Of a stretch of 64,000 nucleotides of DNA, positions 4,715 through 57,326 are shown piece after piece. Every line of letters starts with the position of its first letter. The stretch's first letter is position 1. The position numbers were made by a program, and so were the translations under genes. This stretch comes from Betaproteobacteria bacterium. GTDB lineage: Bacteria > Pseudomonadota > Gammaproteobacteria > Burkholderiales > Casimicrobiaceae. The DNA lies in the NCBI GenBank assembly GCA_013298695.1, contig JAAFIS010000011.1:1-64000 (forward strand), read 5' to 3'. Below the pieces are notes generated by a model. The model had not been told where the DNA came from, did not search any database, and saw only the letters and a program-made list of their open reading frames with translations.

Positions 4715-4797
4715 GCCCAATTACGTTGGGCTAAAACTCAATAATTGATATTTTTCGAAAACTAGTGTTAATTGATGTTCGCCCCATTAGATACGCG
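4715..4797 (+). repeat. Twin-palindrome element, copy A
   Basis: Left unit 4715-4731 is GCCCAATTACGTTGGGC. A 49-base spacer follows with CG at 4756-4757 inside TTTTCGAAAA at its centre, then a decayed right unit at 4781-4797 beginning GCCCCATTAGAT. It lies in the 390-base gap between two convergent genes (4533-4922), which otherwise holds nothing recognisable. See the findings for the family comparison. Confidence 0.8.
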
Positions 4798-4922
4798 GTT
4801 TTAGCGTAAATGCTATTGCTTCTTCCCCGGCGCGTAGCCGCTGGAATTTGCGTTGCCTTCACCCGCATGTCCCAATCTCGATCCAGAACCATTCGTGCGC
4901 CACACGATCAATCGCCAGCGGC

Positions 4923-6389
4923 CTACGAGATAAAGGCGCGCAAATCTCTCGCCATCGCCACAATCGACGGCTTATGGATGTACATCATGTGCCCAGCGTC
5001 GTAGTAATGCGTGGTGATGTCTTTCGCGCGTTCGGCGTCGAGGTTCAAATGATTAAACGTGTAGTCCGTTGCGAAATGCGGCGTCGCTAGATCGTAGTAG
5101 CCATTGGCGACGTAGATTTTCAGATGCGGATTCATGCGCATCGCTTTGCGCAACGTCTCGGCAACATTTGCATATCGATTGGCGAAATCTTTCCAGCCCC
5201 ACGTCATGTAGAGCCCGGAAATCAAGTGATACGGCAAATCGCTTTCGAACTTCAGTGTGCCGCGCACGTAATCGTTCAAGGTCGCACCAAACGCGCCGCC
5301 CAGATTCGCGTGAGATGGGTCGAATTCAAAATGTTCGCCCGCGCTGTCACGATCCTTATTCTTAAACCGAGAATCAAGCCGCCCGACTGTCTCCCCCTTG
5401 TTGCGCAACAACTCTTTGCAAAAGCGATGAATGTGAATGCGAAGCTCGGTCGATTCGATGTACGCGGCTGAAAGCCCCGTGTATCGCACGAGTTTGTTGA
5501 CGATCGTTGCACGCGTTTCGGCGTCGAGCGATGAGCCCGCGAAGAGCGCGGCGCTGTACTCGCCCGCGGCAAAGATTTCTACCTCTTTGAGCAAATCCTT
5601 GAGCTTTCGTTTTTGTTCTGCGGGCGCGAGGGCCTTGTGATGCCAAGCCGTCGCGGTGTAGGTTGGAAGAAACAACACTGGCGGCAAATCGTTGCCGTGG
5701 TCGAAGCGAAGCGTTTGGAAATCGAGCGCGCACGAAATCAGCATCAAGCCGTTCATGTACATGCCGTGCTTTTCTTGCAAAAGTCCCGCAAGTCCGCACG
5801 CGCGCGTGGTGCCGTAGCTCTCGCCTGCGATGTATTTCGGGCTCGACCAGCGCTGATTGCGCGATGCGTAGAGGCGAATGAATTCACCCACACTTTCAAG
5901 GTCGCGCTGATAGTCATGAAACTCTTTCACTTTCTCGCCAGCGACCATGCGCGAATAACCCGTGCCAATCGGATCGATAAACACGAGATCCGTCTTATCG
6001 ATCACACTAAATTCGTTGTCGATTAATTCGTACGGCGGCGCACCAGCGTTGCCCTCATCATCGAGCTTAACGCGCTTCGGTCCGAGCAGGCCTAGATGTA
6101 GCCACACTGAACTCGAACCCGGCCCACCGTTGAACGAAAACGTGATCGGGCGCTTCGCGGAATCTTTCACGTTATCAAGCGTGTAGGCGACGAAGAACAT
6201 CGATGCACGCGGTTTTGCGTCTAGCGCTTCGCCTTCTTTGTCGTGCTCTTCGCGCAAAACAACCGTGCCGCAGGTCGCGGTGTACTTGATCGTTTTGCCA
6301 TTGATTTTGATCTCGTGCCTAGTGACCGACGTGATGTCCTTCGGCTCGATCTGTGGCTCCACTTTCTCTAAAGGCGTTTTCTCTGACAC
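4923..6389 (-). CDS. Peptidase S10 (serine carboxypeptidase-like)
   Basis: About 488 residues. The GTG at 6389 is preferred over an upstream in-frame start at 6422 because AAGGA lies about eight bases before it. Family motifs are in order: TFSFNGGPGSSSVW (oxyanion region), GESYG (nucleophile serine), NGYYDLATP (aspartate) and DAGHMMYIHKP (histidine), giving the complete Ser-Asp-His triad. No signal peptide is visible from the chosen start, so the enzyme may be cytoplasmic, unlike eukaryotic vacuolar homologues. It would remove C-terminal residues from peptides. The neighbouring minus-strand genes (tag, MFS) are separated by about 70 bases. Confidence 0.88.
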   Translation of the reverse strand: MSEKTPLEKVEPQIEPKDITSVTRHEIKINGKTIKYTATCGTVVLREEHDKEGEALDAKPRASMFFVAYTLDNVKDSAKRPITFSFNGGPGSSSVWLHLGLLGPKRVKLDDEGNAGAPPYELIDNEFSVIDKTDLVFIDPIGTGYSRMVAGEKVKEFHDYQRDLESVGEFIRLYASRNQRWSSPKYIAGESYGTTRACGLAGLLQEKHGMYMNGLMLISCALDFQTLRFDHGNDLPPVLFLPTYTATAWHHKALAPAEQKRKLKDLLKEVEIFAAGEYSAALFAGSSLDAETRATIVNKLVRYTGLSAAYIESTELRIHIHRFCKELLRNKGETVGRLDSRFKNKDRDSAGEHFEFDPSHANLGGAFGATLNDYVRGTLKFESDLPYHLISGLYMTWGWKDFANRYANVAETLRKAMRMNPHLKIYVANGYYDLATPHFATDYTFNHLNLDAERAKDITTHYYDAGHMMYIHKPSIVAMARDLRAFIS

Positions 6390-6461
6390 AGCGTTGTTCC
6401 TTAATGTAGCGCGCAGTCTCACTGCACCGCTGTTAGGTTGATGGCGCGATGAGATCGCGCC

Positions 6462-7079
6462 CTACAGTTTCTCGCCCATCGCCTTCACGGCTTCAAAACG
6501 AAAGCAACTCGTTAAATGGTCGTTCACGAGCCCAGCCGCTTGCATGTGCGCGTACACAATCGTCGAGCCGACGAATTTGAACCCGGCTTTTTTGAGCGCT
6601 TTCGACAGCGCATCGGATTCGGGCGTTGTCGCTTTGATGTCTTCCTTGCGCTTGAGCTTCGTTTGAATTGGCCGACCGTTCACGTATTGCCAGAAGAAAT
6701 CGGTGAGCGCGGAATCTGGCCGCGATGCGGTTTCACGTAACTTGAGCAGCGCTTGCGCATTGGTCACTGCTGCGCGAATCTTCAACTGATTGCGGATGAT
6801 GCCCGCATCAAGCAAGAGCTTTTGGATTTTCGGCTCTTTGTAACGCGCGATTTTTTCCACATCGAAATTGTCGAACGCTTTGCGATAGTTTTCACGTTTT
6901 GCGAGCACCGTTTGCCATGAAAGCCCTGCTTGCGCCCCTTCAAGAATCAGCATCTCAAACATCTTGTGTTCATCGAAACACGGCACGCCCCATTCTTCGT
7001 CGTGATAATCCTCATAAAAATCGGGAACGCCCGTTGCCCAGAAACAGCGCTTGATTTCAGATTCGATTTTTTTTGTCAC
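6462..7079 (-). CDS. tag: DNA-3-methyladenine glycosylase I
   Basis: 205 residues from a GTG at 7079 that overlaps the stop of the MFS gene in GTGA. The frame runs open to 7196, but family alignment begins at this GTG. Conserved Tag features: RCFWAT (first zinc cysteine), YHDEEWGVP (zinc histidine and glutamate), FEMLILEGAQAGLSW, DAGIIRNQLKI, DALSKALKKAGFKFVG and NDHLTSC (zinc His and Cys). The enzyme removes 3-methyladenine from alkylated DNA in base-excision repair. The four-base overlap suggests translational coupling to the transporter upstream. Confidence 0.93.
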   Translation of the reverse strand: MTKKIESEIKRCFWATGVPDFYEDYHDEEWGVPCFDEHKMFEMLILEGAQAGLSWQTVLAKRENYRKAFDNFDVEKIARYKEPKIQKLLLDAGIIRNQLKIRAAVTNAQALLKLRETASRPDSALTDFFWQYVNGRPIQTKLKRKEDIKATTPESDALSKALKKAGFKFVGSTIVYAHMQAAGLVNDHLTSCFRFEAVKAMGEKL

Positions 7080-8296
7080 GGTAGTTTCTTTTTTGCAAAC
7101 CAACTGCCCGAAAGCAAGCCACTTCCGACCAACAAGAACAGCGGCAGTAGTCCAGTTTTCGCGGAAAGAATTCCGAACACGAGCGGCATGGTCCATTGAC
7201 TGGTTGAAATCATCGTCATGCGCAGTCCGTTGACTTCGCCGACTCGGTTCGGCGGCGCAGCGCTATGCAAGAAGGACAGCACAATCGGCTGACTCGAACC
7301 GAGTCCGAGGCCCATGACAAACGAACAAACCAGCATCGCTGCATAGTTGTGAGCGAATGCGAAAGCGATGAACGACGCGCCAGCAACGATCATCGCGGCG
7401 ACGATGACGCCGCGCCCCCCGAGCCAGCGCTGTAGCCGCGGCATCGCAAAACGCACTAGGAATACGGCGACGGCGAACAATGACATTACCGAGCCAATCT
7501 GTGTCGCCGTCAACCCAATTTGGCTGCCGAGCACCGGCACCAGGAATATGTAGAGATCCCATCCAATTGTGATGACAGCACCTGTCATCAGTGTGTTGCG
7601 CACAATGGGAATTTGCAGGAGTTCGCTTGCCTTGCCGTGGGGCGCGTCGCGAACTTTGTTCTGAATCGAGGGTAACTTCAAGAACCTCTTCACGTAAAAC
7701 AACACACCCGCGACCAACGGCAATATCGCAAGCACCGCAAACGCCGCGCGGAAACTCACGTGATCGATCATGAAGCCTGCAATGAGCGGCCCCAAAAAAC
7801 TTGACACCGAAAAACCCATCGACATGATTGAAAACGCGCGGATACGGCGCTCTTCTTCACTTCCGCCGTACACGCCAATCGCGTACTGCGAAGCTGCAGC
7901 GATGACCATCCAGCCCACGCCCAAGCCACAGGCCGCTACGGCGAGCACCCAAAGCATCGGCTCAAATGCAGCGAGCGCGCCGCCCGCGACCATCATCACG
8001 CAGCCAAACACCAGCATCTTGCGCAGCGGCAGCCGATCCACGGCGCGACCCGCGCGAATCGCGAGAAATGCTGGAATCAAGTTGAACATCGCGGTGAGAA
8101 TGCCGACCCATAGCGCGCCGCCACCGGCTTTGATTGCGGCGAGCGAAGTGGCTACGCGAATTCCGTTGAATGCCGTGTGCGCGATGATGAGCAGAAGCAC
8201 CATCAAGAAGAGATCTCGCGGAAGCGCGCTTGCGTTTCCGCTCGACAACGACGACGAGGAATGGTCTGGAGGAGAATGCTTAGTGGGTGAAGCCAC
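7076..8296 (-). CDS. Major facilitator superfamily transporter
   Basis: 406 residues with about 12 hydrophobic segments. The loop RAGRAVDRLPLRKML between TM2 and TM3 matches the MFS signature G-x-x-x-D-R-x-x-R. The N-terminus is a 25-residue Ser-rich soluble tail. SFVMGLGLGSSQPIVL in the second half is typical of drug/metabolite exporters. Substrate unknown. Its stop codon overlaps the start of tag (GTGA), so the two are probably co-transcribed; a role in exporting a DNA-damaging compound would fit but is only inference. Confidence 0.85.
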   Translation of the reverse strand: MASPTKHSPPDHSSSSLSSGNASALPRDLFLMVLLLIIAHTAFNGIRVATSLAAIKAGGGALWVGILTAMFNLIPAFLAIRAGRAVDRLPLRKMLVFGCVMMVAGGALAAFEPMLWVLAVAACGLGVGWMVIAAASQYAIGVYGGSEEERRIRAFSIMSMGFSVSSFLGPLIAGFMIDHVSFRAAFAVLAILPLVAGVLFYVKRFLKLPSIQNKVRDAPHGKASELLQIPIVRNTLMTGAVITIGWDLYIFLVPVLGSQIGLTATQIGSVMSLFAVAVFLVRFAMPRLQRWLGGRGVIVAAMIVAGASFIAFAFAHNYAAMLVCSFVMGLGLGSSQPIVLSFLHSAAPPNRVGEVNGLRMTMISTSQWTMPLVFGILSAKTGLLPLFLLVGSGLLSGSWFAKKKLP

Positions 8297-8433
8297 ACCT
8301 CAATTATTGCTCAAGTGACGGCATGATCCAGCCAGCGGTTTCAAAACGCGCACCGCCCGCGCTTTGAATGCTCGTTCCCGCGCAGGCGGGGGCTCGCGGA
8401 CTTCGCTTCGGGCTCGACTCGCTTACAACACGT

Positions 8434-10659
8434 CTAGCCTTTGATGCTCAGAACGATTCCGTACCAAGTACGCGGCTTGCTCACCGCGTTCGTTGTGCTT
8501 TGGTTGGCAAACGCGGTCGTGTTCTCGCTTGCAAGTGGCGCGACGTTATTGGCGATCAGGCGAACCGATACCGTGGGGCTCAGCGGCACGTTTGCGTACA
8601 AGTCGATACTACGCGAACGCACGAACTCAATAGCTTGTTCGGTGGTTTGCTGCGTACGATAGCCGGGCGTGAAAGATACGCTGCCGCCCAAGCGAATCGG
8701 CGCAGCGATGACGCCGCTCAATATGTAATCGATCCCAAGCGTCCCCGACCACGGTTGTTGACGATCTAGGCGGTTATCTGGGCGCGGCACGCCCTTCACC
8801 CGCGACTCATAGAAATTGAGCGACGCGCGCACATCAAGCGGCGTTTTCGCGCTGAACGCAAACGGCAGCAGCGTACCCGCCCGGCCGCGCGCTTCGAGTT
8901 CCAAGCCAAACGTGTTGGCCGAATCGAAGTTCACGGGTTGCGAAACATAGCGCGGCACCGTTGCCCACGACACGGTTTCTAGTGCGGTGCGATTTCGGAT
9001 CAAATCCTTCACGTGGCGATAGAACACCGTCGCACTCGCAACGCCACCACCCGGGAAATACCGCTCATACGCCAGATCAAAGCCCGTGGCTAGTTCAGGT
9101 TTGAGAAGAGGGTTGCCGATTCGATCCGACGAGAGCGGGTCGTTCGGTTTGCTCAGATCGGTGTAGAGCGAGGAAACCTGCGGGCGCGCGAGCAATTGCG
9201 TAGGCTCTGGTGCTTTGAACGTGCTCGTTAAGCTGCTGCGGAAAAGGTGTTCTCCCTTTTCATCGAGTTTGTATTTCAGATGAAACATAGGCGTCACCAC
9301 GTTCGCGGGCTCGGCGTTCAGGCTCTGGCCCACCGCTTTACTTTTTGTTTCGATGCGCTCGCCGCGAATACCGGCATAGCCCGAAAGTCGTTTGCTGATT
9401 TCCCATTCGTCCTGAATGAAAAGCGCGTATCGGGCAACGCGCGCTTCGACGTCTTGGCCTTCAAAAACGGGCAGCAAAGGAACGCCGAGCTCCGTCGTGC
9501 GTGATCGTCCGATCCAGTCGCGCCATTCGAAGGTCCAACCTGCCGTGACCGTATGCGAATCGGCGATCAAGCGCGAATACTGACCACTTTGAGTCAATGA
9601 TGGGTTTTTGTTTTCCCCAAGCGTCAAGCGACGTTCCGCGCCGTTGCGAAACGCGCGTGCGGTGAAATCGTTCGCGTTGTATTGAACGCTCGCTTTGAGT
9701 TCAAGGCGCTGATCGCCGTCAAAGTTATCCGCGTAAGTGGTGCCCAGTCTCGCGTTGAGCCAATTGCCGAAATTGACTGAATCATCCGCAAAAACGGGTT
9801 GACCTGAAATGACGCGGCGATCAGTTGCGATGTCGCTCCAATGCCAGCGACCCTGATTAATGAATGCTTGGGTATTGAGCGAACGGGTGTCGCTGATTTT
9901 CCAATTGAGCGACGGCGAAAAGTTGTAGCCGCGGCCGTAGGGGTGTTGTTCGCTCACGCGTGTTCCAATCGCGGCGGGCGCGTTTGGATTGCTCACCGTC
10001 GTCGTTACGCGTGACGCGTTGAAATTGTTCCACTCGAAATACGAGAACGGCAAATTGAAAGCGGTGCTGCCCTGAATGCGCTCGCCCCAGGTGAGATTCA
10101 AACCGACCGCTGGGTTGTCGTATTGGTAGCTCACGCGTGTTTGCGCCTCGAGCGTGCGCGAGCGTGGCGGCTCTTTGAGAATTATGTTGATGGTGCCGCC
10201 GATCGCTTCTGCCGTTTGATCAGCGGTTGCCGCGCGCGCCACTTCGATTCGCTTCACCTGCGAAGGATTCAAATTGTTTAGATCGAAATTAGGCGGCGCA
10301 GGCTCGCCGTTGAGCAACACGCGGGTGTAGCTGCCAAGGCCGCGCAGCGCGGGGCCGCTGCCGCTCAAGCTCACGCCCGGCAAGCGCTTTAACACGTCGC
10401 CCACGCTCACGTCGCCGAATTTCTGGATGTCCTCTTCATCGAAAATCTGCTTTGCCGCAGTTGATTGACGGCGCAGCTCAACGGTCGTCTGCGGGCGCGC
10501 ACTCAACTCCACACGCTCCAAGCGCTGCGCATTCGGTGTTTCTGCGGGCGTCTCGTTGTTGGCCTGCGCAAACGCCGATGTGCACACTAGGGCTGCAGAA
10601 ACGGCCGTGACCAGGATGCGCACGTCGAAGCCTCGTGCAGGTTGCGATTGAAATTGCAT
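8434..10659 (-). CDS. TonB-dependent receptor
   Basis: 741 residues. The signal peptide ends at SAFAQ near residue 32. The plug domain is at about residues 45-165, with FDEEDIQKFGDVSVGDVLKRLPGV, GLGSYTRVLLNGEP and IEVARAATADQTAEAIGGTINIILKEP. The barrel follows, with strands ending in RTWYGIVLSIKG (terminal aromatic-rich strand). Family members import siderophores, vitamins or saccharides across the outer membrane using TonB energy; nothing in the sequence fixes the substrate. The 484-base gap upstream holds twin-palindrome copy B. The 138-base gap downstream (8297-8433) contains a GC-rich hairpin near 8370-8410 and no gene. Confidence 0.88.
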   Translation of the reverse strand: MQFQSQPARGFDVRILVTAVSAALVCTSAFAQANNETPAETPNAQRLERVELSARPQTTVELRRQSTAAKQIFDEEDIQKFGDVSVGDVLKRLPGVSLSGSGPALRGLGSYTRVLLNGEPAPPNFDLNNLNPSQVKRIEVARAATADQTAEAIGGTINIILKEPPRSRTLEAQTRVSYQYDNPAVGLNLTWGERIQGSTAFNLPFSYFEWNNFNASRVTTTVSNPNAPAAIGTRVSEQHPYGRGYNFSPSLNWKISDTRSLNTQAFINQGRWHWSDIATDRRVISGQPVFADDSVNFGNWLNARLGTTYADNFDGDQRLELKASVQYNANDFTARAFRNGAERRLTLGENKNPSLTQSGQYSRLIADSHTVTAGWTFEWRDWIGRSRTTELGVPLLPVFEGQDVEARVARYALFIQDEWEISKRLSGYAGIRGERIETKSKAVGQSLNAEPANVVTPMFHLKYKLDEKGEHLFRSSLTSTFKAPEPTQLLARPQVSSLYTDLSKPNDPLSSDRIGNPLLKPELATGFDLAYERYFPGGGVASATVFYRHVKDLIRNRTALETVSWATVPRYVSQPVNFDSANTFGLELEARGRAGTLLPFAFSAKTPLDVRASLNFYESRVKGVPRPDNRLDRQQPWSGTLGIDYILSGVIAAPIRLGGSVSFTPGYRTQQTTEQAIEFVRSRSIDLYANVPLSPTVSVRLIANNVAPLASENTTAFANQSTTNAVSKPRTWYGIVLSIKG

Positions 10660-10780
10660 AGATTGAGAATTGAGATTTGCGCTGAAAGCGTCGGATTGAG
10701 TGTTTTACTTCGCAACTCGATGACGAATAGTTCCGAGCGGTTGCAGCAGGAGAATATGAATTATAACAACAGCCGCTTTC

Positions 10781-10864
10781 GCCCAATTTAATTGGGCGAA
10801 GAGTCAATAAAATAGTATTTACGAAACACGTATTTTTCAATCCCGTGGCCCAATAAAATTGGGT
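10781..10864 (+). repeat. Twin-palindrome element, copy B (best-preserved units)
   Basis: Left unit 10781-10797 is GCCCAATTTAATTGGGC, a near-perfect dyad. A 50-base spacer has CG at its exact centre (10822-10823). The right unit starts at 10848 with GCCCAATAAAATTGGG. The element lies in the divergent gap between the TonB receptor and alaS. The rest of that gap (10660-11142) shows no gene. Confidence 0.88.
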
Positions 10865-11142
10865 ATACGTTGATGTAGTTGGAATTCGGAGGAACAGAGC
10901 GCGCTCAATGCCAAGTTCGCCTGGATCGATCCGCGCTGCCTGCATGATAGCCCCGTAAAATCATAGTGTGCGTGAGCTTCGCTTGCGTCCGTAATCTGAT
11001 GTAAGTCACCGCATTTCACGACGCGCGGAATCGCTTACTTTTTGAACCCCAAGGGCCGATTGCAATCCTCGCAATGATCGCAACGGCTGGCGGGACTGTC
11101 GTGACTGATCGTGCCGCGATCGGTAGTCAATCTGAAAATACT

Positions 11143-25148: not shown

Positions 25149-25208
25149 AACGCGCCGTAAGTTGATCGCAGAACGCGATCAAATCGGATAACAACTTAAT
25201 GCGGTTAC

Positions 25209-25292
25209 GTTCAATTAATCCGGGCGACGTGGCGTTTTCAGCATATTCTCGATATTACAGTGAATTTTATCTATCGCCCAACTAAATTGGGC
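25209..25292 (-). repeat. Twin-palindrome element, copy E
   Basis: Read on the minus strand, the first unit 25292-25276 is GCCCAATTTAGTTGGGC. A 50-base spacer with CG at its centre (25250-25251) follows, then unit 25225-25209 GCCCGGATTAATTGAAC. It sits between two convergent genes. Confidence 0.85.
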
Positions 25293-25313
25293 GATAAGCA
25301 CGAAAGCTATAGT

Positions 25314-32046: not shown

Positions 32047-33141
32047 TCACGCCACAACCCTCGGCAATGCTTTCCCAGCTGCATCAAACCAATAGCAATC
32101 TTTCGCCGCGAACGAAAGCGGCAACATATCGCCCGTTTTCACTTTCGCATTGCCTGGCGCGACGACGGTGAGCAATTCCGGTGCACCGGGAATCTCGCAA
32201 TAAATCTGCGTTTGGCTTCCAAGCGCTTCGACAAATTTAACTGGGCAATCGATGCTTTTATGATTTTTGTCAATCTTAATGTTTTCAGGCCGCAAGCCGA
32301 GCTTACATTGGACGTTAGTAAGTGATGCTGGAGCGCCAGAAAGTGACGCAATTTCGACACCGTTCTTGAGTTTCAGCCCGCCGTCACCGCTGCCGTTTGC
32401 GCTCAGCGTTCCTTCGAGAAAATTCATGCGGGGTGAACCCAGAAATCCCGCGACGAATTCGTTGGCTGGATGATCGTAGAGCTCCTGCGGTGATCCGACT
32501 TGTTCAATGCGTCCATCGCGCAGCACGACGATGCGATCAGCGAGCGTCATCGCCTCCACCTGATCGTGCGTCACGTAAATCATCGTGGTTTTGAGTTCTT
32601 CATGCAGTTTCGCAAACTCGTAGCGCATACGCACGCGAAGCTCGGCGTCCAAATTCGAAAGCGGTTCGTCAAACAGAAACACCTCGGGCTTGCGCACAAT
32701 CGCGCGACCAATCGCCACGCGTTGCCGCTGACCTCCAGAGAGTGCTTTCGGTTTGCGATCGAGTAAGTGATCGATATTCAGCGTCTTCGCGGCGGCGTGA
32801 ACGAGTTTCGAAATTTCGTCCTTCGGCACTTTGGCAAGCTGCAAGCCAAACGCCATGTTGTCGAAAAGATTCATGTGCGGATAGAGCGCGTACGACTGAA
32901 ACACCATCGCAATGCCGCGATCCGACGGCGGCACATCGTTGACGAGTTTGTCGCCGACGTGCAAGCTGCCCGAGGTGATTTCTTCCAAGCCCGCAATCGT
33001 GCGCAGCAGCGTCGATTTGCCGCAGCCCGAGGGTCCGACAAACACGACGAATTCGCCGTCATTAATTTCTAGATTGATGTCCTTCAACACATGGACATCT
33101 GCGAACGATTTTTGAACGTTCGCCAAGCGCACACCGGCCAT
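32047..33141 (-). CDS. malK: Maltodextrin ABC transporter ATPase (MalK/UgpC type)
   Basis: 364 residues. The ATG at 33141 is chosen because AAAGGAGGAG lies seven bases before it. Walker A GPSGCGKSTL, Q-loop MVFQSYALYPHM, signature LSGGQRQRVAIGRAI, Walker B VFLFDEPLSNLD, H-loop YVTHDQVEAM. A C-terminal regulatory TOBE/MalK domain starts around residue 235 (LGLRPENIKI). It powers MalFG. First gene of the operon malK-malE-malF-malG-amylase, transcribed away from glgP. Confidence 0.94.
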   Translation of the reverse strand: MAGVRLANVQKSFADVHVLKDINLEINDGEFVVFVGPSGCGKSTLLRTIAGLEEITSGSLHVGDKLVNDVPPSDRGIAMVFQSYALYPHMNLFDNMAFGLQLAKVPKDEISKLVHAAAKTLNIDHLLDRKPKALSGGQRQRVAIGRAIVRKPEVFLFDEPLSNLDAELRVRMRYEFAKLHEELKTTMIYVTHDQVEAMTLADRIVVLRDGRIEQVGSPQELYDHPANEFVAGFLGSPRMNFLEGTLSANGSGDGGLKLKNGVEIASLSGAPASLTNVQCKLGLRPENIKIDKNHKSIDCPVKFVEALGSQTQIYCEIPGAPELLTVVAPGNAKVKTGDMLPLSFAAKDCYWFDAAGKALPRVVA

Positions 33142-33245
33142 GCCGTCTCCTCCTTTAATGCCGAGCACGCCAATCCTCCTCGATCAACGTGCGCGGTCGC
33201 GGCATCGTAGCCGCTGGGAGAAATATAGAGCGTTTTAATGAAAAA

Positions 33246-40057: not shown

Positions 40058-41569
40058 ATGAAAATCCCATCGCGCGCCTCTGGCATCTTGCTTCACGTTA
40101 CTTCTCTTCCCGGGCCAAACGGCATCGGCGATTTAGGCCCTGATGCGTATCGTTTTGTTGATTGGTTGCAATCGACGGGGCAGAGTTTGTGGCAATGGTT
40201 GCCGACAACGCCAATTGGCCCAGGTGACTCGCCGTATCAAAGCGTCTCGGCGTTTGCTGGCTCGCCGTTGATGGTGGCGTTAGAGCCGTTGATAGAGAAA
40301 AATTGGCTGTCAGCCGCTGACATCAACGCCCAAGAAAACTGGGCTATAAACGTTGAATTTGGAAAGGTTGTTACTTTTCGTAACGAGGTGCTACGCCTTT
40401 CTAAATTGGGCTTTGATGCCAGAAGCTCGACTGCAGATAAAGCAGCTTTCGCGAGCTGGCGCTCAGCGAATGCAGAGTGGCTGAACGAGTACGCATTGTT
40501 CGCCGCGCTTCATCAAGCCAACGACTGGCGGCCTTGGTGGGAGTGGGACGCAGCGCTGAAAAAACGTGACGCGAATGCACTTGCTGCCGCGAAAAAAACC
40601 TACGCAAATGACATCGCGTTTTGGGAATTCGTGCAATGGTGTTTCGATACGCAGTGTGCCGCTTTGAAGCAATATGCCAACGAACGCGGCGTTGCGCTCG
40701 TGGGTGACTTGCCGATTTTCATTGCGGATAACAGCGCGGATTGTTGGTCGCGACAAGACTTGTATTTCTTGGGTGATGACGGAAAGCCAAACGTCGTCGC
40801 CGGTGTGCCGCCCGATGATTTCGGACCGAACGGTCAACGTTGGGGTAATCCGCTTTATCGTTGGGATCGGATGAAAGCGGAAGGATTTTCGTGGTGGGTG
40901 TCGCGAGTGAAACGTGCGCTAACGCAATGCGATCTATTCCGCATCGATCACTTCCGTGGCTTCGCGGGCTACTATGAAATTCCCGGCGCCAACGATCACG
41001 CGCGCGAAGGTCGATGGCTCACGGGGCCGGGCAAGGCGCTCTTCGATGCAATTGAGGGTGCGCTCGGAAAAGTGCCCGTAATCGCAGAGGACTTAGGTTT
41101 GATTACGGACGACGTGATCGAGCTGCGCGATAGTTGCGGCTATCCCGGCATGAAGATTTTGCAATTTGCATTCGGCGGCGACGGCTCACATGAGTTTTTG
41201 CCGCACAATTACACGAGCAATTGCATCGTCTACACCGGAACACATGACAACGACACCGCGCGTGGCTGGTTCGCAGCTGCGCCAGCGAATCAACAACACT
41301 ATGCGTGCACTTACCTCGCGTGCAGCGAACATGATTTTCATTGGGCACTGATTCGTGCAGCAAGTAATTCGGTTGCGAAGATGGCTGTGTTTCCGTTACA
41401 AGACGTGCTCGGTTTGGGCAACGATGCGCGTATGAATTTACCAGGCTCACTCGGTGGTTCGAATTGGAAATGGCGATTTACGTGGGACATGCTGGCCGCG
41501 GAGCCATCACGCGTGTTGCGATTGATTACGGCGGCGAGTGGGCGGGCTCCGATTCAGATGATTCGGTGA
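40058..41569 (+). CDS. malQ: 4-alpha-glucanotransferase (amylomaltase)
   Basis: 503 residues, of the Thermus/plant DPE1 GH77 type rather than the longer E. coli form: SGILLHVTSLPGPNGIGDLG, GDSPYQSVSAFAGSP, RWGNPLYRW, RIDHFRGFAGYYEIP (nucleophile Asp), PVIAEDLGLIT (acid/base Glu), TGTHDNDTARGW. It transfers maltodextrin segments and releases glucose for the glucokinases. A sequence with the exact geometry of the twin-palindrome family (40328-40411) lies inside the gene, in frame, over a segment that still aligns with the family (VEFG for VDYG). Confidence 0.95.
   Translation: MKIPSRASGILLHVTSLPGPNGIGDLGPDAYRFVDWLQSTGQSLWQWLPTTPIGPGDSPYQSVSAFAGSPLMVALEPLIEKNWLSAADINAQENWAINVEFGKVVTFRNEVLRLSKLGFDARSSTADKAAFASWRSANAEWLNEYALFAALHQANDWRPWWEWDAALKKRDANALAAAKKTYANDIAFWEFVQWCFDTQCAALKQYANERGVALVGDLPIFIADNSADCWSRQDLYFLGDDGKPNVVAGVPPDDFGPNGQRWGNPLYRWDRMKAEGFSWWVSRVKRALTQCDLFRIDHFRGFAGYYEIPGANDHAREGRWLTGPGKALFDAIEGALGKVPVIAEDLGLITDDVIELRDSCGYPGMKILQFAFGGDGSHEFLPHNYTSNCIVYTGTHDNDTARGWFAAAPANQQHYACTYLACSEHDFHWALIRAASNSVAKMAVFPLQDVLGLGNDARMNLPGSLGGSNWKWRFTWDMLAAEPSRVLRLITAASGRAPIQMIR
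40328..40411 (+). repeat. Twin-palindrome match inside malQ (copy G)
   Basis: Unit 1 is GCCCAAGAAAACTGGGC (40328-40344). The 50-base spacer has TG at its exact centre (40369-40370). Unit 2 is GCCTTTCTAAATTGGGC (40395-40411). Total 84 bases, 28 whole codons. Whether it is a true family member is unsettled: the encoded residues look native to MalQ. Confidence 0.5.
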
Positions 41570-44537: not shown

Positions 44538-44579
44538 CAACGCAGTCAGTACAAAGCAGAAATAAATTAGAGAGCATAT

Positions 44580-44663
44580 GCCCAAATTCCCCTGGGTTAG
44601 CGGTTAAGTAGGTACGCAGTTGTGTTAAGTTAAATACCTAAGTTTCGCCCAATAAAAACGTGC
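44580..44663 (+). repeat. Twin-palindrome element, copy F
   Basis: The left unit from 44580 is GCCCAAATTCCCCTGGG. TG at 44621-44622 marks the centre; the spacer also holds TAGGTA/TACCTA arms. The right unit 44647-44663 is GCCCAATAAAAACGTGC. It lies in the 340-base gap before the DUF1800 gene; nothing else is recognised there. Confidence 0.8.
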
Positions 44664-44876
44664 GTTAAGCGATGTAGCCGATGGGTAAACGTCGTTGTTA
44701 TGGCATAGTTGCCGAATCACTCGCTAGACAAATGTTGAACAAAATCAATCGCTTCGCCCGCACTGACAGGTGATGACGCTGGCATAAATTGCGTATTTTG
44801 CTGTTATTCTCCGACTGGGGAGTTCGGTGGATGCCGCTGCTTGTTGGCAACACCGCAGTTGTTCTAGGGTGGAAAT

Positions 44877-49669: not shown

Positions 49670-49678
49670 AATCTGATT

Positions 49679-50152: not shown

Positions 50153-50280
50153 CGCGCGTCGCGCACGGGACGTCGCCGCTAGCGCGGCTTAAGACGACGG
50201 CGCTCCCGCCTGTTGCGAAGACGAAGTTTGAACTTTGATCGCCAGTGCCTAGCGAGTGGTCTTTTTATCGATGCATAGAT

Positions 50281-50298: not shown

Positions 50299-50312
50299 GA
50301 CAGGAATTTGTA

Positions 50313-50939
50313 ATGACGAAATTGCCTTCGGTGCGCATGAGAATTTTCCTCGCGTCATCACTCGCGATCATCGCCGCCGCCTGTTCGCCCACTGCGGACA
50401 AAGCCTCGCCACTCAAATTCAACGCGACCGACATCACCGGCGCGTCATTTGCGAAGACACTGGCGCTGAACGACGCGGCGACGAAAACACCACGAACACT
50501 CGATTCGTTCAAAGGCAAAGTCACAGTGTTTTTCTTCGGCTACATGTTCTGCCCGGACTATTGCCCGACCACGATGACGACGCTCAACTCAGCGCTCGCG
50601 AAGATGTCGCCTGAGGATGCAAAACAGGTCGAAATCGTTTTCGTTACCGTCGATCCAAAGCGCGACACGCCGGATCAGCTCGCTAAATACGTTGCAGCGT
50701 TCAATCCCAATTTCAAGGCGCTCTATGGCAGCGAAGAGGCGACTGCCGCGATCGCTAAAGATTGGAAGATCATCTACCAAAAAGCGCAAATCAAAGATGA
50801 GAACACCTATCTCGTTGATCATTCAACGCAGATGTATGTGTTCGATAAGCAGAATCGAATTCGCTTGATGATTCGGCACGAAGCGGGCGTCGAGGCGATC
50901 GCGAAAGACCTAACCACGCTTGTGAAATCTGAGTCCTAG
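50313..50939 (+). CDS. SCO1/SenC family copper-delivery lipoprotein
   Basis: 208 residues from ATG 50313. The frame extends to 50256, but that part translates the repeat. Lipobox IAAAC (Cys24). Thioredoxin-like Sco domain with the copper-binding CxxxC in GYMFCPDYCPT (C80 and C84) and the ligand histidine in YLVDHSTQMYVFD. It inserts copper into the Cu-A site of cytochrome c oxidase or acts as its thiol reductase. Adjacent to PCuAC and the MauE-like gene, together forming a copper-maturation set. Confidence 0.93.
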   Translation: MTKLPSVRMRIFLASSLAIIAAACSPTADKASPLKFNATDITGASFAKTLALNDAATKTPRTLDSFKGKVTVFFFGYMFCPDYCPTTMTTLNSALAKMSPEDAKQVEIVFVTVDPKRDTPDQLAKYVAAFNPNFKALYGSEEATAAIAKDWKIIYQKAQIKDENTYLVDHSTQMYVFDKQNRIRLMIRHEAGVEAIAKDLTTLVKSES

Positions 50940-50953
50940 CTCAGAGCCACGCC

Positions 50954-51037
50954 GCCCACTCTTATTGGGCTACCACGTAGAAACTGATTATTTTCGAAAA
51001 GTATCGTAATTGATGCTATCGCCTCAATATAACGGGC
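50954..51037 (+). repeat. Twin-palindrome element, copy C
   Basis: The left unit is GCCCACTCTTATTGGGC (50954-50970). The 50-base spacer has TTTTCGAAAA exactly at its centre (CG at 50995-50996). The right unit is GCCTCAATATAACGGGC (51021-51037). It lies 14 bases after the Sco stop, between convergent genes. Confidence 0.85.
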
Positions 51038-51128
51038 GATAGGCGACGGTGTTGCTATTCCATCAGCGGGTTATTAGGCCGCTGCGCCCGCGCGGACGCT
51101 GGCGCATTGGTAGGTTTGTGAGCGCGGT

Positions 51129-51206: not shown

Positions 51207-51559
51207 AACCCCTTCCAAAGCCCCGTTTCCTTGGCGCAGGTGCGAATCGTCGGGATGTATTCGGTCACGAAACGCAGCGTTTCCGGATTCAGTGAAATCT
51301 CTTTGACTTCATCGATGTCTTTTTCGAGCTTTGCAACATCGACTTTCTGTGTAAAACAGCCACAGAATTTCTTCGGAATATCGGTTTCGGCCACGACTGG
51401 AGACACCGTGTTCAACATGCGCACCACGCGATCTTGACACTTCGAATCGAGCAGCGAGCGTTTGGGAGCTTCCATCACCGTTGCACAGCTTGATAGCGCG
51501 AATACGGTTAGGGTTAGGAGCGTTACGCGCGCCCGAAAAGTCGTTTGAATCCCAACCAT
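51203..51559 (-). CDS. Small lipoprotein of unknown function
   Basis: About 118 residues. Hydrophobic leader RVTLLTLTVFALSSC gives a lipobox (LSSC). The mature part is acidic and helical, with CQDR, KKFCGCFTQK and RTCAKE cysteines. No family recognised. Starts are possible at 51559 or 51571; both overlap the end of the fatty acid hydroxylase gene by about 40 bases. The TAG stop lies within a repeat. Confidence 0.65.
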   Translation of the reverse strand: MVGIQTTFRARVTLLTLTVFALSSCATVMEAPKRSLLDSKCQDRVVRMLNTVSPVVAETDIPKKFCGCFTQKVDVAKLEKDIDEVKEISLNPETLRFVTEYIPTIRTCAKETGLWKGL

Positions 51560-52461: not shown

Positions 52462-52470
52462 TGCCAAATT

Positions 52471-52560
52471 GTAGGCGCGTCGCCTTGATGGTGGGGATCA
52501 ACCCCGCGTCCGTTTACTTGCTGAGCGCGGTTGATCCCAACTTCGAGAGAACGCGCCTAC
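52471..52560. repeat. GTAGGCGCG...CGCGCCTAC repeat between hydroxylase and deacetylase
   Basis: The ends GTAGGCGCG (52471) and CGCGCCTAC (52552-52560) are inverted; inside are GGGGATCAACCCC and GCGGTTGATCCC. It supplies the deacetylase TAG stop at 52557-52559. Confidence 0.85.
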
Positions 52561-53435
52561 CGCGCCACGCGCTGGTTAATCCCGCCACCAAGCTTGGCGT
52601 CCTTCAAGGTCGAAAAACAAAACCCTTTCGCTTTCAACTGCGAAATGAGCGGATCGAGCATCGGCCAAAACGGATCTTTGCGTGACCAAATGCCCAAGTG
52701 CGCCATCATGATGTCGCCATCGCGAAGGTTTGCGGCCGCGCGCTTTACCAGCGCTTCGTTGGGATACGCTTCGCTTGAGAGTTCATCGCCCAGAAAACCC
52801 GCGTCAGCCCAATGCACGTGCGTGTAGCCGCAACTTTTCGCGAACTCCAATACGCGCGCTGTCGTTTTCCCACCGGGCGCGCGCCAAAAACCGTCGTAGC
52901 CTCGGCCGGTCATTTCTTGAAAGCGGTTCTCTGATTTTTTGAGTTCCGCACACACGCCCGCGCGATCCAACATGCGCCCGGATTTTGCGCCCCACGGAAC
53001 GTAGCTCACGCGTTCGGTGCCGATGTCGCCACGAAAATAGTGGTGATCCCATGTGTGCGAACCAAATGCATGACCTTCTTTCACGAGCCGCTGCCAGAAT
53101 GGCTTTTGTGAATCGTCTAAAGTAAAACCGCCGGATTTTGTTTTCTCATTCGCTAAAAAAAAAGTGGCTTTCACGCTGTGCTTCGCGAGGATATCCGCAA
53201 TTTGCGCGGCAGGCTCCATGTGGCCAGTGTCGAAGGTTAAGTAGAGCGTGCCGGCAGAGCAAACGGGTTGCGCTCTGGATTCAGTGACCGAGAGCGCGAG
53301 CGTGCCAAGCGCTGTCATCGCAATGAGCGAAGCCACGAAGCGATCCAGAAAGCACGTCGAGCGAGTAGAGTCAGTCCGCAAGCTATGTTTTCTAGGTTGC
53401 TTCGTTGCGCTCGCGATAACCGGAACAAAAAACAT
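52557..53435 (-). CDS. Polysaccharide deacetylase family protein with repeat-derived N-terminus
   Basis: 292 residues from ATG 53435, nine bases after the stop of the YVTN gene. The catalytic domain (about residues 65-285) has LYLTFDTGHMEP (TFDDG variant), AFGSHTWDHHYF (zinc histidines), RAPGGK and VHWADAGFL. The first 50 residues translate a repeat (53314-53421): VIASATKQ...LDRFVASLIAMT. The hydrophobic run RFVASLIAMTALGTLALS then acts as a plausible signal peptide ending SRAQ. It would remove acetyl groups from surface glycans or peptidoglycan. In TFDTG an Asp that usually follows is replaced by Thr, which may weaken catalysis. Confidence 0.8.
   Translation of the reverse strand: MFFVPVIASATKQPRKHSLRTDSTRSTCFLDRFVASLIAMTALGTLALSVTESRAQPVCSAGTLYLTFDTGHMEPAAQIADILAKHSVKATFFLANEKTKSGGFTLDDSQKPFWQRLVKEGHAFGSHTWDHHYFRGDIGTERVSYVPWGAKSGRMLDRAGVCAELKKSENRFQEMTGRGYDGFWRAPGGKTTARVLEFAKSCGYTHVHWADAGFLGDELSSEAYPNEALVKRAAANLRDGDIMMAHLGIWSRKDPFWPMLDPLISQLKAKGFCFSTLKDAKLGGGINQRVAR
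53314..53421. repeat. Inverted repeat (CATTGCGAGCGAAGCGAAGC type) inside deacetylase 5' end
   Basis: The end TCATCGCAATGAGCGAAGCC is mirrored by GGTTGCTTCGTTGCGCTCGCGA about 85 bases away. This is a widespread proteobacterial repeat type whose translation VIASxAKQ...FVASLLAMT is familiar. Confidence 0.8.
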
Positions 53436-53443
53436 CGTCAGTT

Positions 53444-54442
53444 CTACCGATCCCGCTTCGCGTGCGAACGGAAATACACGCCGTGCGGCGACCGCCCGAC
53501 TGGGATGTATTCGATGGGTTTCGCCCCGGTCATGTCGATGACCGCAACGCGAGCCTCGAACCGCACAGTTGCCCATACTTCCTTCCCGTCGGCAGATATC
53601 TCCATGCAATCCACACCGTTGCCGACTTTGATCGGTTTGCCCACCACCGCGAGGGCTTTGTAATCCACTTTCGCAATCGTGCCATCCACGCGATTACTCA
53701 CCAATACGTGTTGACCATCGCCCATCGGAAATACGTTGTGCGCGCCACGTCCGGTTACGATACGTTTAACCGATTCACGCTTGGCAGGATCGATCACATC
53801 AACAAAATCGCGCCCCATCGCACCAACGAAAAGCATGCCTTGTGGACTCATCCAGATGCCCGCAGGCGTTTTACCGATTTTCATGCGCCAGGATTCTTTT
53901 TGTGTTGCCAGATCAATCGTTGCGAGTTCATCAGAATCCTGCAGCGTGATGAACGCAAACTTCGAGTCGTTGCTAAACGCAACATGGCTGGGCGTTTTTG
54001 CGAGGGGAACACGCGCTTTGAGTTCGTAGTTGGGCATTGAATACACATCAACTCGATCCAGCCGCAAACTCACCGATACGAACCATTTACCGTCTGGCGA
54101 ATAGCCTAGTTGATAAGGATCGATAATGCGCGGCACGCGGCGCTTCACTTCGCCCGTCAACGGGTCGAGGAACACTAAATCGTTGGATGCCGCGTTCGCC
54201 ACCACAAGCTCACTGTCGTCAAGCGTGGTCACCAAATGATGCGGCTCTTTGCCCACCGGGCGCGTTTCGACAACCTTTCGAGTCGCTCTATCAATAATCG
54301 ACACCGTGCCGTCACCGGAATTAAGCACGATCACTCGTTCGCCAGGTTTCAGCGCAAACACGCTCGGCGTGTGGAGCGAAAGCGCGGCGAGGGTGACCAA
54401 AGTTGCGACAAAAGAGGTCGCGGAACGAAAAGCATTTTGCAT
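53444..54442 (-). CDS. YVTN/YncE-like beta-propeller secreted protein
   Basis: About 332 residues from ATG 54442; the frame runs open to 54496 without homology. The signal peptide ends near SVFA. Repeats of the YVTN type: RVIVLNSGDGTVSIIDRATRKVVETRPVG, PHHLVTTLDDSELVVAN, SNDLVFLDPLTGEVKRRV, with the last blade VAVIDMTGAKPIEYIPVGRSPHG. The role is unknown; YncE relatives bind DNA or act in surface or redox functions. The gene order next to the deacetylase may not be functional. Confidence 0.85.
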   Translation of the reverse strand: MQNAFRSATSFVATLVTLAALSLHTPSVFALKPGERVIVLNSGDGTVSIIDRATRKVVETRPVGKEPHHLVTTLDDSELVVANAASNDLVFLDPLTGEVKRRVPRIIDPYQLGYSPDGKWFVSVSLRLDRVDVYSMPNYELKARVPLAKTPSHVAFSNDSKFAFITLQDSDELATIDLATQKESWRMKIGKTPAGIWMSPQGMLFVGAMGRDFVDVIDPAKRESVKRIVTGRGAHNVFPMGDGQHVLVSNRVDGTIAKVDYKALAVVGKPIKVGNGVDCMEISADGKEVWATVRFEARVAVIDMTGAKPIEYIPVGRSPHGVYFRSHAKRDR

Positions 54443-54606
54443 GGTTGGATTGTAGTTTTTCACGCGCGAAACGCCTGAGCGTATGCGCCGGCACATTACG
54501 CTTGTTGGCGCTCAAACAGCGTGCGCGGACGCTGCCTAGCGAAGATTCTTAGTCGAGCAAACCAGAATCCGCTACGATTAACGCCCCTGTCCGATGCGGC
54601 GTTGTC

Positions 54607-55158
54607 ATGGTTCGTTTTTTAGTCCTGTTTTTGGTGTTGCTCGCGGTGTTGTTCGCGCTCGAACTAACGCCGTGGGGGCAAACGTATTTCGTGATTCCGT
54701 GGACCAACGGGCTCGCGCATTTCTGCGCTCAACTGGTGGCGTTAGTCGACGAATCGGCGGTGGCGACCGGAAAGGTGCTGCGTAGCGCCAAAAACGGTTT
54801 TGCGGTTTCGATCGAAGCGGGATGTAATGGCATCGAGGCAACCATCATTTTGCTTGCGGCGGTGCTTGCCTTTCCATCGACGATCAAACAAAAACTGTGG
54901 GGTCTTGCGATCGGCTTTGTCGCGATTCAAGCGTTAAATGTGGTTCGCATCATTTCCCTGTTCTATATTGGTCAGTGGAACATGACCGCATTCGAGTGGG
55001 CGCATCTGCACATCTGGCCCGCGCTAATCATCCTCGACGCATTAATTTTCTTCATGATCTGGTTGCGATTCGTGACCAAACAGCGGGCGAAAGATGAATT
55101 GCCACCACCGCCTTCGCCGATGGGTGGCGGTGGGTCCGCAAATCCGCAACCGGCATAG
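54607..55158 (+). CDS. xrtH: Exosortase H
   Basis: 183 residues, integral membrane. The exosortase catalytic set is visible: Cys73 in EAGCNGIEA, Arg114 in NVVRIISLF and a His in WAHLHIW (133/135). Exosortase H pairs with proteins bearing an IPTLxxWG-CTERM tail and processes them at the membrane, usually to send them to the cell surface. The C-terminus PPPPSPMGGGGSANPQPA is low complexity and encoded by a GC hairpin (55102-55138), probably a later addition. The partner gene follows four bases later. Confidence 0.9.
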   Translation: MVRFLVLFLVLLAVLFALELTPWGQTYFVIPWTNGLAHFCAQLVALVDESAVATGKVLRSAKNGFAVSIEAGCNGIEATIILLAAVLAFPSTIKQKLWGLAIGFVAIQALNVVRIISLFYIGQWNMTAFEWAHLHIWPALIILDALIFFMIWLRFVTKQRAKDELPPPPSPMGGGGSANPQPA

Positions 55159-55164
55159 CCTGTG

Positions 55165-55806
55165 ATGAAATTTCTCGGCGCGCCAACAACGATTCGGCGT
55201 TTTTTTGTTCGCGCTTTGCTGTTGATGCCAGTTGCATTCACCGTTTGGTATTTGCTGGTCCCAGCACTACATTGGCCGATCCGATGGTTCCTTGCGGGGA
55301 TGGCGGCGCTTGGGTATCCGGAGTTTTTGACGCAGGTGAATCAAACCCTACCGGGTTTTGAATTGATCACCTCACTCACACCAGGTGCCGAAGCGGGGCG
55401 CCCGTTCCGGCCCGGCGCGGTTATTACTACTGAGCTAGACGCGCGCATCTATACGTGGGGTACGGCGCTGATGGCAACGCTCACGCTCGCTGCTTGGGAC
55501 AAATCGCGCTGGAGCTATCTTTGGTATGGCTTTCTTGTTTTGCTGCCATTTCAGATGGCCGCTGTTTTTGCGGTGGCGATCAAAGAAATGGTGTTGTCCT
55601 CGCGCGCAGTTATGGCGCAAGTGGAGTGGGCACAGTGGCAATTTGAAGCGGTCGCCTACTTGTACCAATTTTCGACACTTATGATGCCACCGGTCACGGC
55701 CGTTGTTGTTTGGCTCGTTCTACACCGTGAGTTCGTCGCGAAGTTCGTAGGTGCTGATGTGATCGATTTGATCCGCGAAAGCGAAAAAAGCACTAAAAGA
55801 AAATAG
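55165..55806 (+). CDS. Exosortase H-associated membrane protein
   Basis: 213 residues (GTG at 55162 is an alternative start). About four hydrophobic stretches: LLLMPVAFTVWYLLVPAL, GTALMATLTLAA, YLWYGFLVLLPFQMAAVFAVAI and LMMPPVTAVVVWLVL. Position directly after xrtH matches the known two-gene arrangement. Role inferred from context only. Confidence 0.8.
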   Translation: MKFLGAPTTIRRFFVRALLLMPVAFTVWYLLVPALHWPIRWFLAGMAALGYPEFLTQVNQTLPGFELITSLTPGAEAGRPFRPGAVITTELDARIYTWGTALMATLTLAAWDKSRWSYLWYGFLVLLPFQMAAVFAVAIKEMVLSSRAVMAQVEWAQWQFEAVAYLYQFSTLMMPPVTAVVVWLVLHREFVAKFVGADVIDLIRESEKSTKRK

Positions 55807-55831
55807 AAGCGCACTGCGGTGAAACTCGCCG

Positions 55832-57127
55832 TTAGCGCGCTGCTTTTCGTCGATTCGTCATTGGTGCCTCTGGCGAGCGCGCCGCAGTTTTGATGTTTGC
55901 GTCCGCCTCGGTTTTTAGATCAGGGATGTGATTAAACGCAATCGCCATGCGCCCACCTTTTTCCGATCCATACGCACCACCCCAAAACAGCGCGCCTTTG
56001 CCGAATTTGAGGTTGAGTTCATCGACTATTCTGTCTAGTTTTTCAGTGTTGGGTTGGGCATCGAAAAGCGATAGCGATTGGCCCTCGCGCGGCGTGAGTC
56101 CTGAAAGCGCCATCGCGACTTGCATCGGTGCACCGTTTCGCGCGTTTCGGTTTTCAAGAATCTCATCGTAGAGCGCTCCGATCATCGACAACACGGTTTG
56201 TGACCGGTCGGTCGCGTCGATGCGTCGGTGCGCCTTGTGTTTTTCACCCCCACGCAATTTGATTGCAAGCGAGACATCGGTCGCCACGTAATTGGATTCG
56301 CGCAACCGAACACACGCTTTCTGCGTCAATCGGGACAGGATCGCTCGCGCTTTTTCATGGGTGCGAACATCAGGCGCAAGCACGTGCGAATGGCTGATGG
56401 ACGAGGTCTGCGTTTCCCGCTGTTGAACGTCTTCCCCGCGCAGTTTTTGCCAAAAACGTTCGCCTTCAACGCCGCCCCACACCGTGCGAAGTTTGTCCAT
56501 CGAGGCGTCGAGCAGCTGATCGGTGCTGAGAATGCCGTGATCATTCAATCGCTCCAGCATTTTTTTGCCGATACCAACGAACGCGTTTAACTTAAGCGGA
56601 CGCAACACATTCGGCAGGTCGCTCATTTCGATGACGATCAAGCCATCTGGTTTTTTCATGTCACTCGCGGTTTTGGCGAGAAAGGTGTTGGGCGCGATCC
56701 CGATGGAACAGGTGATGCATTCGCCAAGCTGCCGCGCTAAGCGATACTTGATTTCTAGCGCGAGTTTCTCAGCGTTTTCGCGTTGCTGATCACGGCCGCC
56801 GAGGCGAATCCACATCTCATCAATTGAATTCACATCAGCGATGGGCGCACAGCTTTCCACCACTTCTTTTGCCTTGTGATGAAACTCCACATACACCGCC
56901 GGCCGCGACACGACAAACTCAATGTCAGGACACAAACGTCGAGCGTCGGCGACGTTGGTTAACGTCTTCACCCCAAAGCGCTTTGCTTCAATGCTAGCTG
57001 CGATTGCGCAAGTGGTGTCAGCGATCATCGGCACCACCGCCACTGGACGCCCACGCAGCTCCGGCCGCAGTTGTTGCTCAACCGAGGCAAAATAGCTGTT
57101 GAAATCGACGTAGAGGGCGCGGAGCAT
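55832..57127 (-). CDS. Y-family DNA polymerase (DinB/Pol IV-like)
   Basis: 431 residues. The palm and finger motifs of Y-family polymerases are intact: YVDFNSYFASVEQQ (metal Asp8), DVNSIDEMW (metal Asp/Glu pair), CSIGIAPNTFLAKTASDMKKPDG and GIGKKMLERL. A little-finger domain lies at about 240-350 (REQTSSISHSHVLAP region). It copies damaged DNA with low fidelity. A LexA-like box (57177-57192) lies 50 bases upstream, which suggests SOS induction. Not the catalytically dead ImuB, because the acidic residues are present. Confidence 0.9.
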   Translation of the reverse strand: MLRALYVDFNSYFASVEQQLRPELRGRPVAVVPMIADTTCAIAASIEAKRFGVKTLTNVADARRLCPDIEFVVSRPAVYVEFHHKAKEVVESCAPIADVNSIDEMWIRLGGRDQQRENAEKLALEIKYRLARQLGECITCSIGIAPNTFLAKTASDMKKPDGLIVIEMSDLPNVLRPLKLNAFVGIGKKMLERLNDHGILSTDQLLDASMDKLRTVWGGVEGERFWQKLRGEDVQQRETQTSSISHSHVLAPDVRTHEKARAILSRLTQKACVRLRESNYVATDVSLAIKLRGGEKHKAHRRIDATDRSQTVLSMIGALYDEILENRNARNGAPMQVAMALSGLTPREGQSLSLFDAQPNTEKLDRIVDELNLKFGKGALFWGGAYGSEKGGRMAIAFNHIPDLKTEADANIKTAARSPEAPMTNRRKAAR

Positions 57128-57176
57128 CGATGTGGTTCGTTGTTGTTTTTGACGAATGAATTGGCGGTGGAAAACA

Positions 57177-57192
57177 CTGTTATTTTATTCAG
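57177..57192. promoter_or_regulatory. LexA (SOS) box before the Y-family polymerase
   Basis: CTGTTATTTTATTCAG fits CTG-N10-CAG with an A before and a T after, as in ACTGT...ACAGT. It lies 50 bases from the polymerase start, on the minus-strand promoter side, and is compatible with dinB regulation. Confidence 0.7.
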
Positions 57193-57242
57193 TTTTTGGT
57201 GGTTTCGTACGGGTTTTTGTAGGTTCAGCTTTTACTATATAA

Positions 57243-57326
57243 GCCCGATTTAATAGGGCAAACTACATGCATCGGTAAAGTCTTGATTAATACGATTCCT
57301 GACCCTGCTGCCCAATAAAATAGGAA
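57243..57326 (+). repeat. Twin-palindrome element, copy D
   Basis: The left unit is GCCCGATTTAATAGGGC (57243-57259). The 50-base spacer has TG at its centre (57284-57285). The right unit is GCCCAATAAAATAGGAA (57310-57326). It lies in the divergent gap between the polymerase and the patatin gene, 34 bases before the latter's ATG. Confidence 0.83.

Follow-up and report, generated by a model that had tools for sequence, protein, structure and literature searches.

The 64,000-nucleotide stretch analysed here (the window; contig C3:1-64000 of the source genome G000, 4.08 Mb in 22 contigs) carries a recurrent DNA element, hereafter the unit, in which two palindromes lie at a fixed distance on either side of a common centre. 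Six copies, sites A to F, occupy gaps between genes and are given with their position weight matrix (PWM) scores. Site A (4695-4818; palindromes 4715-4731 and ~4781-4798, centre near 4756/4757; score 65), site C (25189-25312; palindromes 25209-25225 and 25276-25292, centre 25250/25251; score 90) and site E (50934-51057; palindromes 50954-50970 and 51021-51037; score 61) lie in convergent gaps, site B (10761-10884; palindromes 10781-10797 and 10848-10864, centre 10822/10823; score 94) and site F (57223-57346; palindromes 57243-57259 and 57310-57326; score 63) in divergent gaps, and site D (44560-44683; palindromes 44580-44596 and 44647-44663; score 47) in a tandem gap. A preliminary description of this DNA had listed these six intergenic copies, each with a CG or TG step at its midpoint; all six were found, with palindromes 66-67 bp apart from start to start and the step present in every one (6/6).

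The count of six holds for the gaps between genes, but two further clear copies and a weak one lie inside genes. The first (32210-32333; half-sites 32230-32246 and 32297-32313; PWM 38) falls in a malK-like gene on the minus strand (32047-33168) and is matched by model R1 at 32213-32332 (E 3e-6), and the second (40308-40431; half-sites 40328-40344 and 40395-40411; PWM 48) falls in a malQ-like gene on the plus strand (40058-41569), where R1 matches 40308-40427 (E 8e-10). The weak possible site, near 62001 (61939-62062; palindrome at 62026; R1 E 3e-4; PWM 16), lies in an AMP-binding-enzyme gene (60432-62255, minus strand). Between 32047 and 41569 the window holds maltodextrin-type genes, a malK-like ABC ATPase and a malQ-like 4-alpha-glucanotransferase, each with a unit in its coding sequence.

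For a consensus, 49 exact palindromes were read with their flanks, giving a set of 47 loci (L012, a duplicate of L011, was left out); the 35/47 loci with a partner (at least 9/14 matches at 66-68 bp) were kept and the 12/47 without one left out. These 35 loci and the six window copies make up 41 units, oriented by an iterative profile, from which a symmetric matrix was built and then re-derived on 83 sites from 464 kb. Spacing is rigid: setting aside the peaks that self-overlap produces at offsets 1 and 15, the mean match profile around the 49 exact palindromes rises at ±66 to 68 and nowhere else. About 120 bp long, the unit has one dyad, whose centre reads TTnTCGAnAA; this is flanked by two GCCCAAT/ATTGGGC palindromes at a distance of 67 bp from each other and, farther out, by CAGCTT boxes. 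Read from the edge inward, the matrix shows CAGCTT at about -59 to -54, GCCCAATTTAATTGGGC at -42 to -26, T/A at -14 and -13, and TTnTC beside the dyad, and conserved positions reach about ±62 bp around this single dyad. The 83-85 bp twin-palindrome unit first proposed is thus a real core, but the outer boxes lengthen it to about 120 bp, which makes the centre of the whole unit the true dyad.

Species differ in how they spell the unit. The palindromes are of the GCCTTAT type in G010, and G005 and G011 share a dialect with a strong outer CAGCTTTT and the centre AAAGTCGACTTT. The consensus outer box of G005, ~46-60 bp from the centre, is itself an inverted repeat (TCAGC-TTTTT-GCTGA), and the unit may hold five dyads.

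The geometry recurs far more often than chance would give. Allowing at most one mismatch, GCCCAATNNNATTGGGC has 190 sites in G000 against 0 for the reversed pattern, and in C1:1-400000, a stretch that includes two of the matrix-building units, 74 sites score 12 bits or more with the symmetric matrix, against no site of even 8 bits in one first-order Markov sequence and in the reversed sequence. This corresponds to 185 sites per Mb, with a mean gap of ~5.4 kb, and to roughly 750 sites per genome if the density of this stretch is extrapolated; density is lower in G005 and G011, at ~65 per Mb. Spacing was computed on these 400 kb of G000, on two stretches of 200 kb of G005 and on 272 kb of G011. 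With R1, which lists 74 sites, the coefficient of variation (CV) of the G000 gaps is 0.59, against 0.98 for uniform placement; with the matrix sites it is 0.60, against 0.90 under a null of random placement in intergenic gaps whose lowest value in 5000 trials was 0.65. The first G005 stretch (12 sites) has a CV of 0.42 (P 0.003). The evidence for even spacing is thus strong for G000 and, for G005 and G011, suggestive. Scattered motifs maintained along chromosomes are also known from matS/MatP, KOPS (FtsK-orienting polar sequences) and HIP1 (highly iterated palindrome 1), which differ in being short single motifs, as against a multi-block dyad of ~120 bp here.

In G000, 54/74 sites lie less than 20% within called genes and 13/74 more than 90% within them, while none of the 18 sites in G011 is inside a gene. 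Among G000 gaps of at least 100 bp, a site is present in 16/26 convergent, 30/90 tandem and 10/37 divergent ones, so that convergent gaps are enriched (16/26 versus 40/127 other gaps, P 0.006), which we count in favour of gyrase, discussed below. One 5S gene has a site ~0.4 kb downstream and the other only a weak site ~1.8 kb away, a thin test on two genes. Another reading makes the units control elements of a large regulon, in which one transcription factor would bind two operators by looping, as the palindromic half-sites and their fixed distance would allow, and a unit does lie similarly far upstream of trmD in several species. Yet operators at ~185 per Mb in the stretch examined, placed in convergent gaps and genes, evenly spaced and showing no preference for divergent promoter gaps (10/37), are scarcely credible.

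The palindromes might instead act as RNA, the unit being a hairpin element such as a terminator or a stabiliser of mRNA 3' ends. Their presence, the convergent enrichment in G000 and a T run that follows the second palindrome 3' of gyrA would suit such a role. The arms, however, do not covary: complementary cells number 611/1162 (608.2 expected), complementary double changes 35/108 (40.1 expected), and the left and right palindromes show no covariation either (755/1411 versus 751.9 expected). The lack of compensatory arm changes leads us to reject a hairpin or cruciform, and the palindromes behave as half-sites in double-stranded DNA. The strict 17-bp palindromes described earlier are present, but their symmetry is approximate, the centre-facing GGG arm of each palindrome being 84-92% kept and the outer CCC arm 59-81%; a sequence-blind search for palindrome pairs in G000 gave no peak at 67 bp, so the feature that is kept is the sequence-specific half-site and not strict palindromicity. 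Single-strand DNA folding clearly beats shuffles in just one of the six window copies, units also occur in divergent gaps and inside genes, and no Rfam family matches the window at gathering score. On this evidence an RNA role is highly improbable.

The gyrA-adjacent unit (G000:C18:241074-241195, or L154:11074-11195) lies directly 3' of an open gyrA frame whose six C-terminal blades are matched and whose stop codon ends at L154:11070. With the T run after its second palindrome, this copy could double as a terminator.

Copies inside genes bear directly on how the units arise. The preliminary description had offered a small non-autonomous mobile element as one reading, and an insertion of this length should leave an insert of ~40 residues in the encoded protein. 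Of 15 in-gene copies, 12 of them in C1 and three in the window, eight have no such insert, seven are uninformative and none (0/15) has one. The copies in trmD and in the malK-like, malQ-like, alpha-amylase and DegT-type aminotransferase genes lie where the best solved homologue in the PDB aligns through with gaps of at most 6 residues, and those in the DNA ligase, TsaD-like and AMP-binding-enzyme genes lie inside Pfam domains whose matched length equals the profile length within 5 residues. The strongest in-gene copy (61 bits) is among the uninformative ones, its host gene having no detected homologue; the others lie at an aminotransferase start, in an MmeI-like gene, in HlyD-like and FimV-like genes outside known domains, in a partly covered nucleotidyltransferase and in one unscanned gene. 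At malQ, no ortholog has an insertion at the site, and the G009 gene carries a site in the corresponding position.

Twelve sites scoring 8 bits or more lie wholly within genes, and on average 1.3 remain once synonymous codons are shuffled within genes (20 trials). Since shuffling removes most in-gene copies, they evolved in place: they arose through base changes in coding sequence and are partly kept by codon choice. Individual in-gene sites turn over, as the trmD site is strong in G000 alone (17.3 bits, against -9.2 at the same place in G002 and far lower scores in 14 other genomes, G008 not included). Separately, a possibly conserved site lies ~1.0-1.3 kb upstream of trmD, where G005, G006, G010, G012 and G014 each carry a unit, and an MmeI-type restriction-modification gene of G000 (L091:5810-8689) carries a weak unit (13 bits) in its coding sequence.

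Comparison with G002, a metagenome-assembled genome (contigs JAAFJO01, deposited as Betaproteobacteria bacterium) whose contig C12 is syntenic with the window, shows how sites fare between species. The window and C1 together supply 18 syntenic intervals; G002 has a site of at least 12 bits in 10 of them, in nine cases no more than 200 bp from the matching relative position. Of random intervals of equal length, 18.6% hold a site scoring 5 bits or more, or ~3.3/18 expected (binomial P 5e-4). Within the window, the G002 counterparts score 54 at site F, 14 at E, 12.7 at C, 23 in the malK-like ortholog and 15 in the malQ-like one; the gap orthologous to site A holds a 16-bit site 916 bp off in relative position, the place orthologous to site B has none (-20.5), and the weak site near 62001 has no counterpart. 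Site D failed the synteny filter, and the G002 stretch compared with it has no site (-56.9), nor any match to the two genes 3' of it. Identity in the nine pairs is 0.63 in high-information and 0.38 in low-information columns (0.58 and 0.27 for unrelated copies): most spacer sequence has changed, and the motif remains.

These results also weigh on a mobile origin, in which a miniature inverted-repeat transposable element (MITE), or a doublet of repetitive extragenic palindromes (REP) of the kind found in bacterial interspersed mosaic elements (BIME) and moved by a REP-associated Y1 transposase, would have spread and then decayed. The units are indeed multicopy, mostly intergenic and denser in the G000 stretch than in those of G005 and G011, and Y1_Tnp genes occur in 15/17 genomes of the genus, missing only from the two smallest, G016 and G008, where the pan-genus model R2 gives 0 and 20 matches, respectively (both strands counted). 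Genome size, however, confounds this correlation, and Y1_Tnp genes turn up as well in 28/47 genomes from the family's other genera, a group in which the unit is missing but for one weak case. Orthologous positions are kept while spacers have mostly diverged, the even spacing does not suit transposition, and near-identical copies are absent among the 41 units, whose pairwise identity reaches at most 0.63 (mean 0.47; spacers at most 0.62, mean 0.35). No precise empty site that would define the edges of the unit was found. Together with the in-gene copies that are not insertions, this makes a mobile element very unlikely.

REP/BIME elements are defined by a stem-loop kept by compensatory changes and by an associated Y1 transposase (RAYT) gene flanked by repeats. 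G000 shows neither, as the arms lack compensatory changes and its sole Y1_Tnp match, weak and RAYT-like in a 176-aa frame (C1:100270-100635), is unflanked, the nearest units being centred at 98391 and 105664. The likeness lies in copy number, above 100 per genome, and in palindromes arranged in regular pairs (PMC2817692); the present units differ in lacking arm covariation, in occurring in genes without insertion, in their even spacing and in lying away from the G000 Y1 transposase gene. MITEs and ERIC-like (enterobacterial repetitive intergenic consensus) inverted repeats of ~127 bp are similar in length, overall inverted symmetry, intergenic bias and multicopy state, and the units depart from them in showing no insertion where this is testable, in being diverged except at motif positions and in being evenly spaced. 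Integron attC sites were considered and dropped because the units lie kilobases apart.

Counting matches at E of at most 0.001 with R2, units occur in 16/17 genomes of the genus, and the other genera of the family contribute 1/47 genomes, a member of a sister genus with two weak matches (best 1.6e-4). The order-wide and phylum-wide searches used stricter filters, under which weak matches are lost: among 300 sampled genomes of the order five matched, all genus members, and among 398 sampled genomes of the phylum only G000 did, apart from one partial 51-bp match elsewhere. A phage collection gave no match to site F, and viral contigs contained no exact double palindrome. Of three matches in genome contigs, L049 and L051 are tandem-repeat coincidences and L050 is genuine (G002). 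No paper describing such an element was found in the literature searched.

The units probably serve as double-stranded docking sites of a chromosome-organising, DNA-wrapping protein complex. The earlier suggestion of a target for a DNA-binding protein gains support from the rigid dyad, the lack of covariation between arms, the even placement and the copies found inside genes without insertion, all features of the sequence itself. A dyad of this length (~120 bp), its conserved blocks lying to either side of one centre, suggests wrapping on a twofold-symmetric complex, and we infer both protein binding and DNA wrapping at the units. Such a complex would wrap or bend ~120 bp around the central TCGA step, with the palindromes and outer boxes as DNA-protein contacts on either side of the centre. 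Selection would keep hundreds of fairly even sites, ~1 per 5 kb in the part of G000 analysed, so that the complex would act chromosome-wide, most likely in supercoiling or domain organisation. More tentatively, and short of an even chance, the units may form a genus-wide grid of ~120-bp dyads every ~5 kb, selected even in coding sequence and read by a dedicated wrapping complex with species dialects. We know of no counterpart to a regular architectural marking of the chromosome of this kind.

DNA gyrase is the leading candidate for the bound protein, an assignment by analogy that we regard as possible. The gyrase motif of Escherichia coli is 130 bp long, symmetric about the cut and marked by a 10.75-bp GC periodicity in its flanks, and BIME-2 elements are bound by gyrase (PMC6379681). 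In G000, GC minima lie ~2.5, 12.5, 22.5, 30.5-35.5, 44.5 and 53.5 bp from the dyad, with a similar series in G005, and a sinusoid fitted to the GC profile over 0-57 bp has a best period of 10.0 bp in G000 and 9.8 bp in G005. The GC profile was also compared with 8 kb of phage Mu that include the annotated gyrase cut: the correlation has a local maximum at +2 to +3 from the cut, the expected position of the dyad, though only at rank 132-191/7869. The gyrase sites of PMC6379681 (the Mu strong gyrase site, BIME-2 and the E. coli motif) resemble the units in their ~130-bp size, single centre, GC variation, chromosome-wide spread and, as proposed for the units, role in topology; the E. coli motif is described there as degenerate, whereas the units have base-specific half-sites, are genus-specific and come in species dialects.

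Several observations weigh against binding by gyrase or, more broadly, against evenly placed docking sites. The 10-bp sinusoid fits modestly (R² ~0.33), and a period of 7.5 bp does better over 18-66 bp, which leaves the helical phasing suggestive only. At the Mu gyrase cut the base-level matrix finds no match (-46 bits), and the central TCGA lacks the initial G favoured at quinolone-trapped cuts. A slight excess of symmetry between halves appears in the spacer (752/2075 versus 710.3) and in outer columns (694/1992 versus 655.3), its significance not assessed. Evenness is weaker in the second G005 stretch (14 sites, CV 0.72, P 0.19) and in G011 (18 sites in 272 kb, CV 0.61, P 0.023 against uniform and 0.052 against intergenic placement), and convergent enrichment is absent from G011 (convergent 2/11, tandem 10/52, divergent 6/22). 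Gyrase is universal, but among the genomes searched the sites are confined to one genus, apart from a weak pair of matches in a sister genus and a partial one elsewhere, and one member of that genus, G016, has no unit by the R2 search. As a natural case of loss, G016 (2.6 Mb, 97% complete) could help to identify the binding protein.

The main rival to gyrase is a dedicated genus-specific protein, perhaps an octamer of the Lrp type or a nucleoid protein not yet described, which would wrap the DNA or loop it at regular distances. The genus restriction among the genomes searched and the lack of sites in G016 would follow directly, species dialects of palindrome and centre fit a co-evolving protein, and the half-sites are strongly base-specific. 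The ~120-bp length and single dyad, however, already fit a footprint of gyrase size, with no new protein needed, and we consider such a hypothetical binder rather unlikely.

If the units are indeed gyrase sites, they would form the most sequence-defined array of such sites known to us and would make the need for regularly spaced entry points of supercoiling testable. Were another protein to bind them, they would point to a new chromosome-organising complex. In either case, their evolution in place inside genes and their species dialects offer a natural experiment on how signals of DNA architecture are kept up and rewritten.

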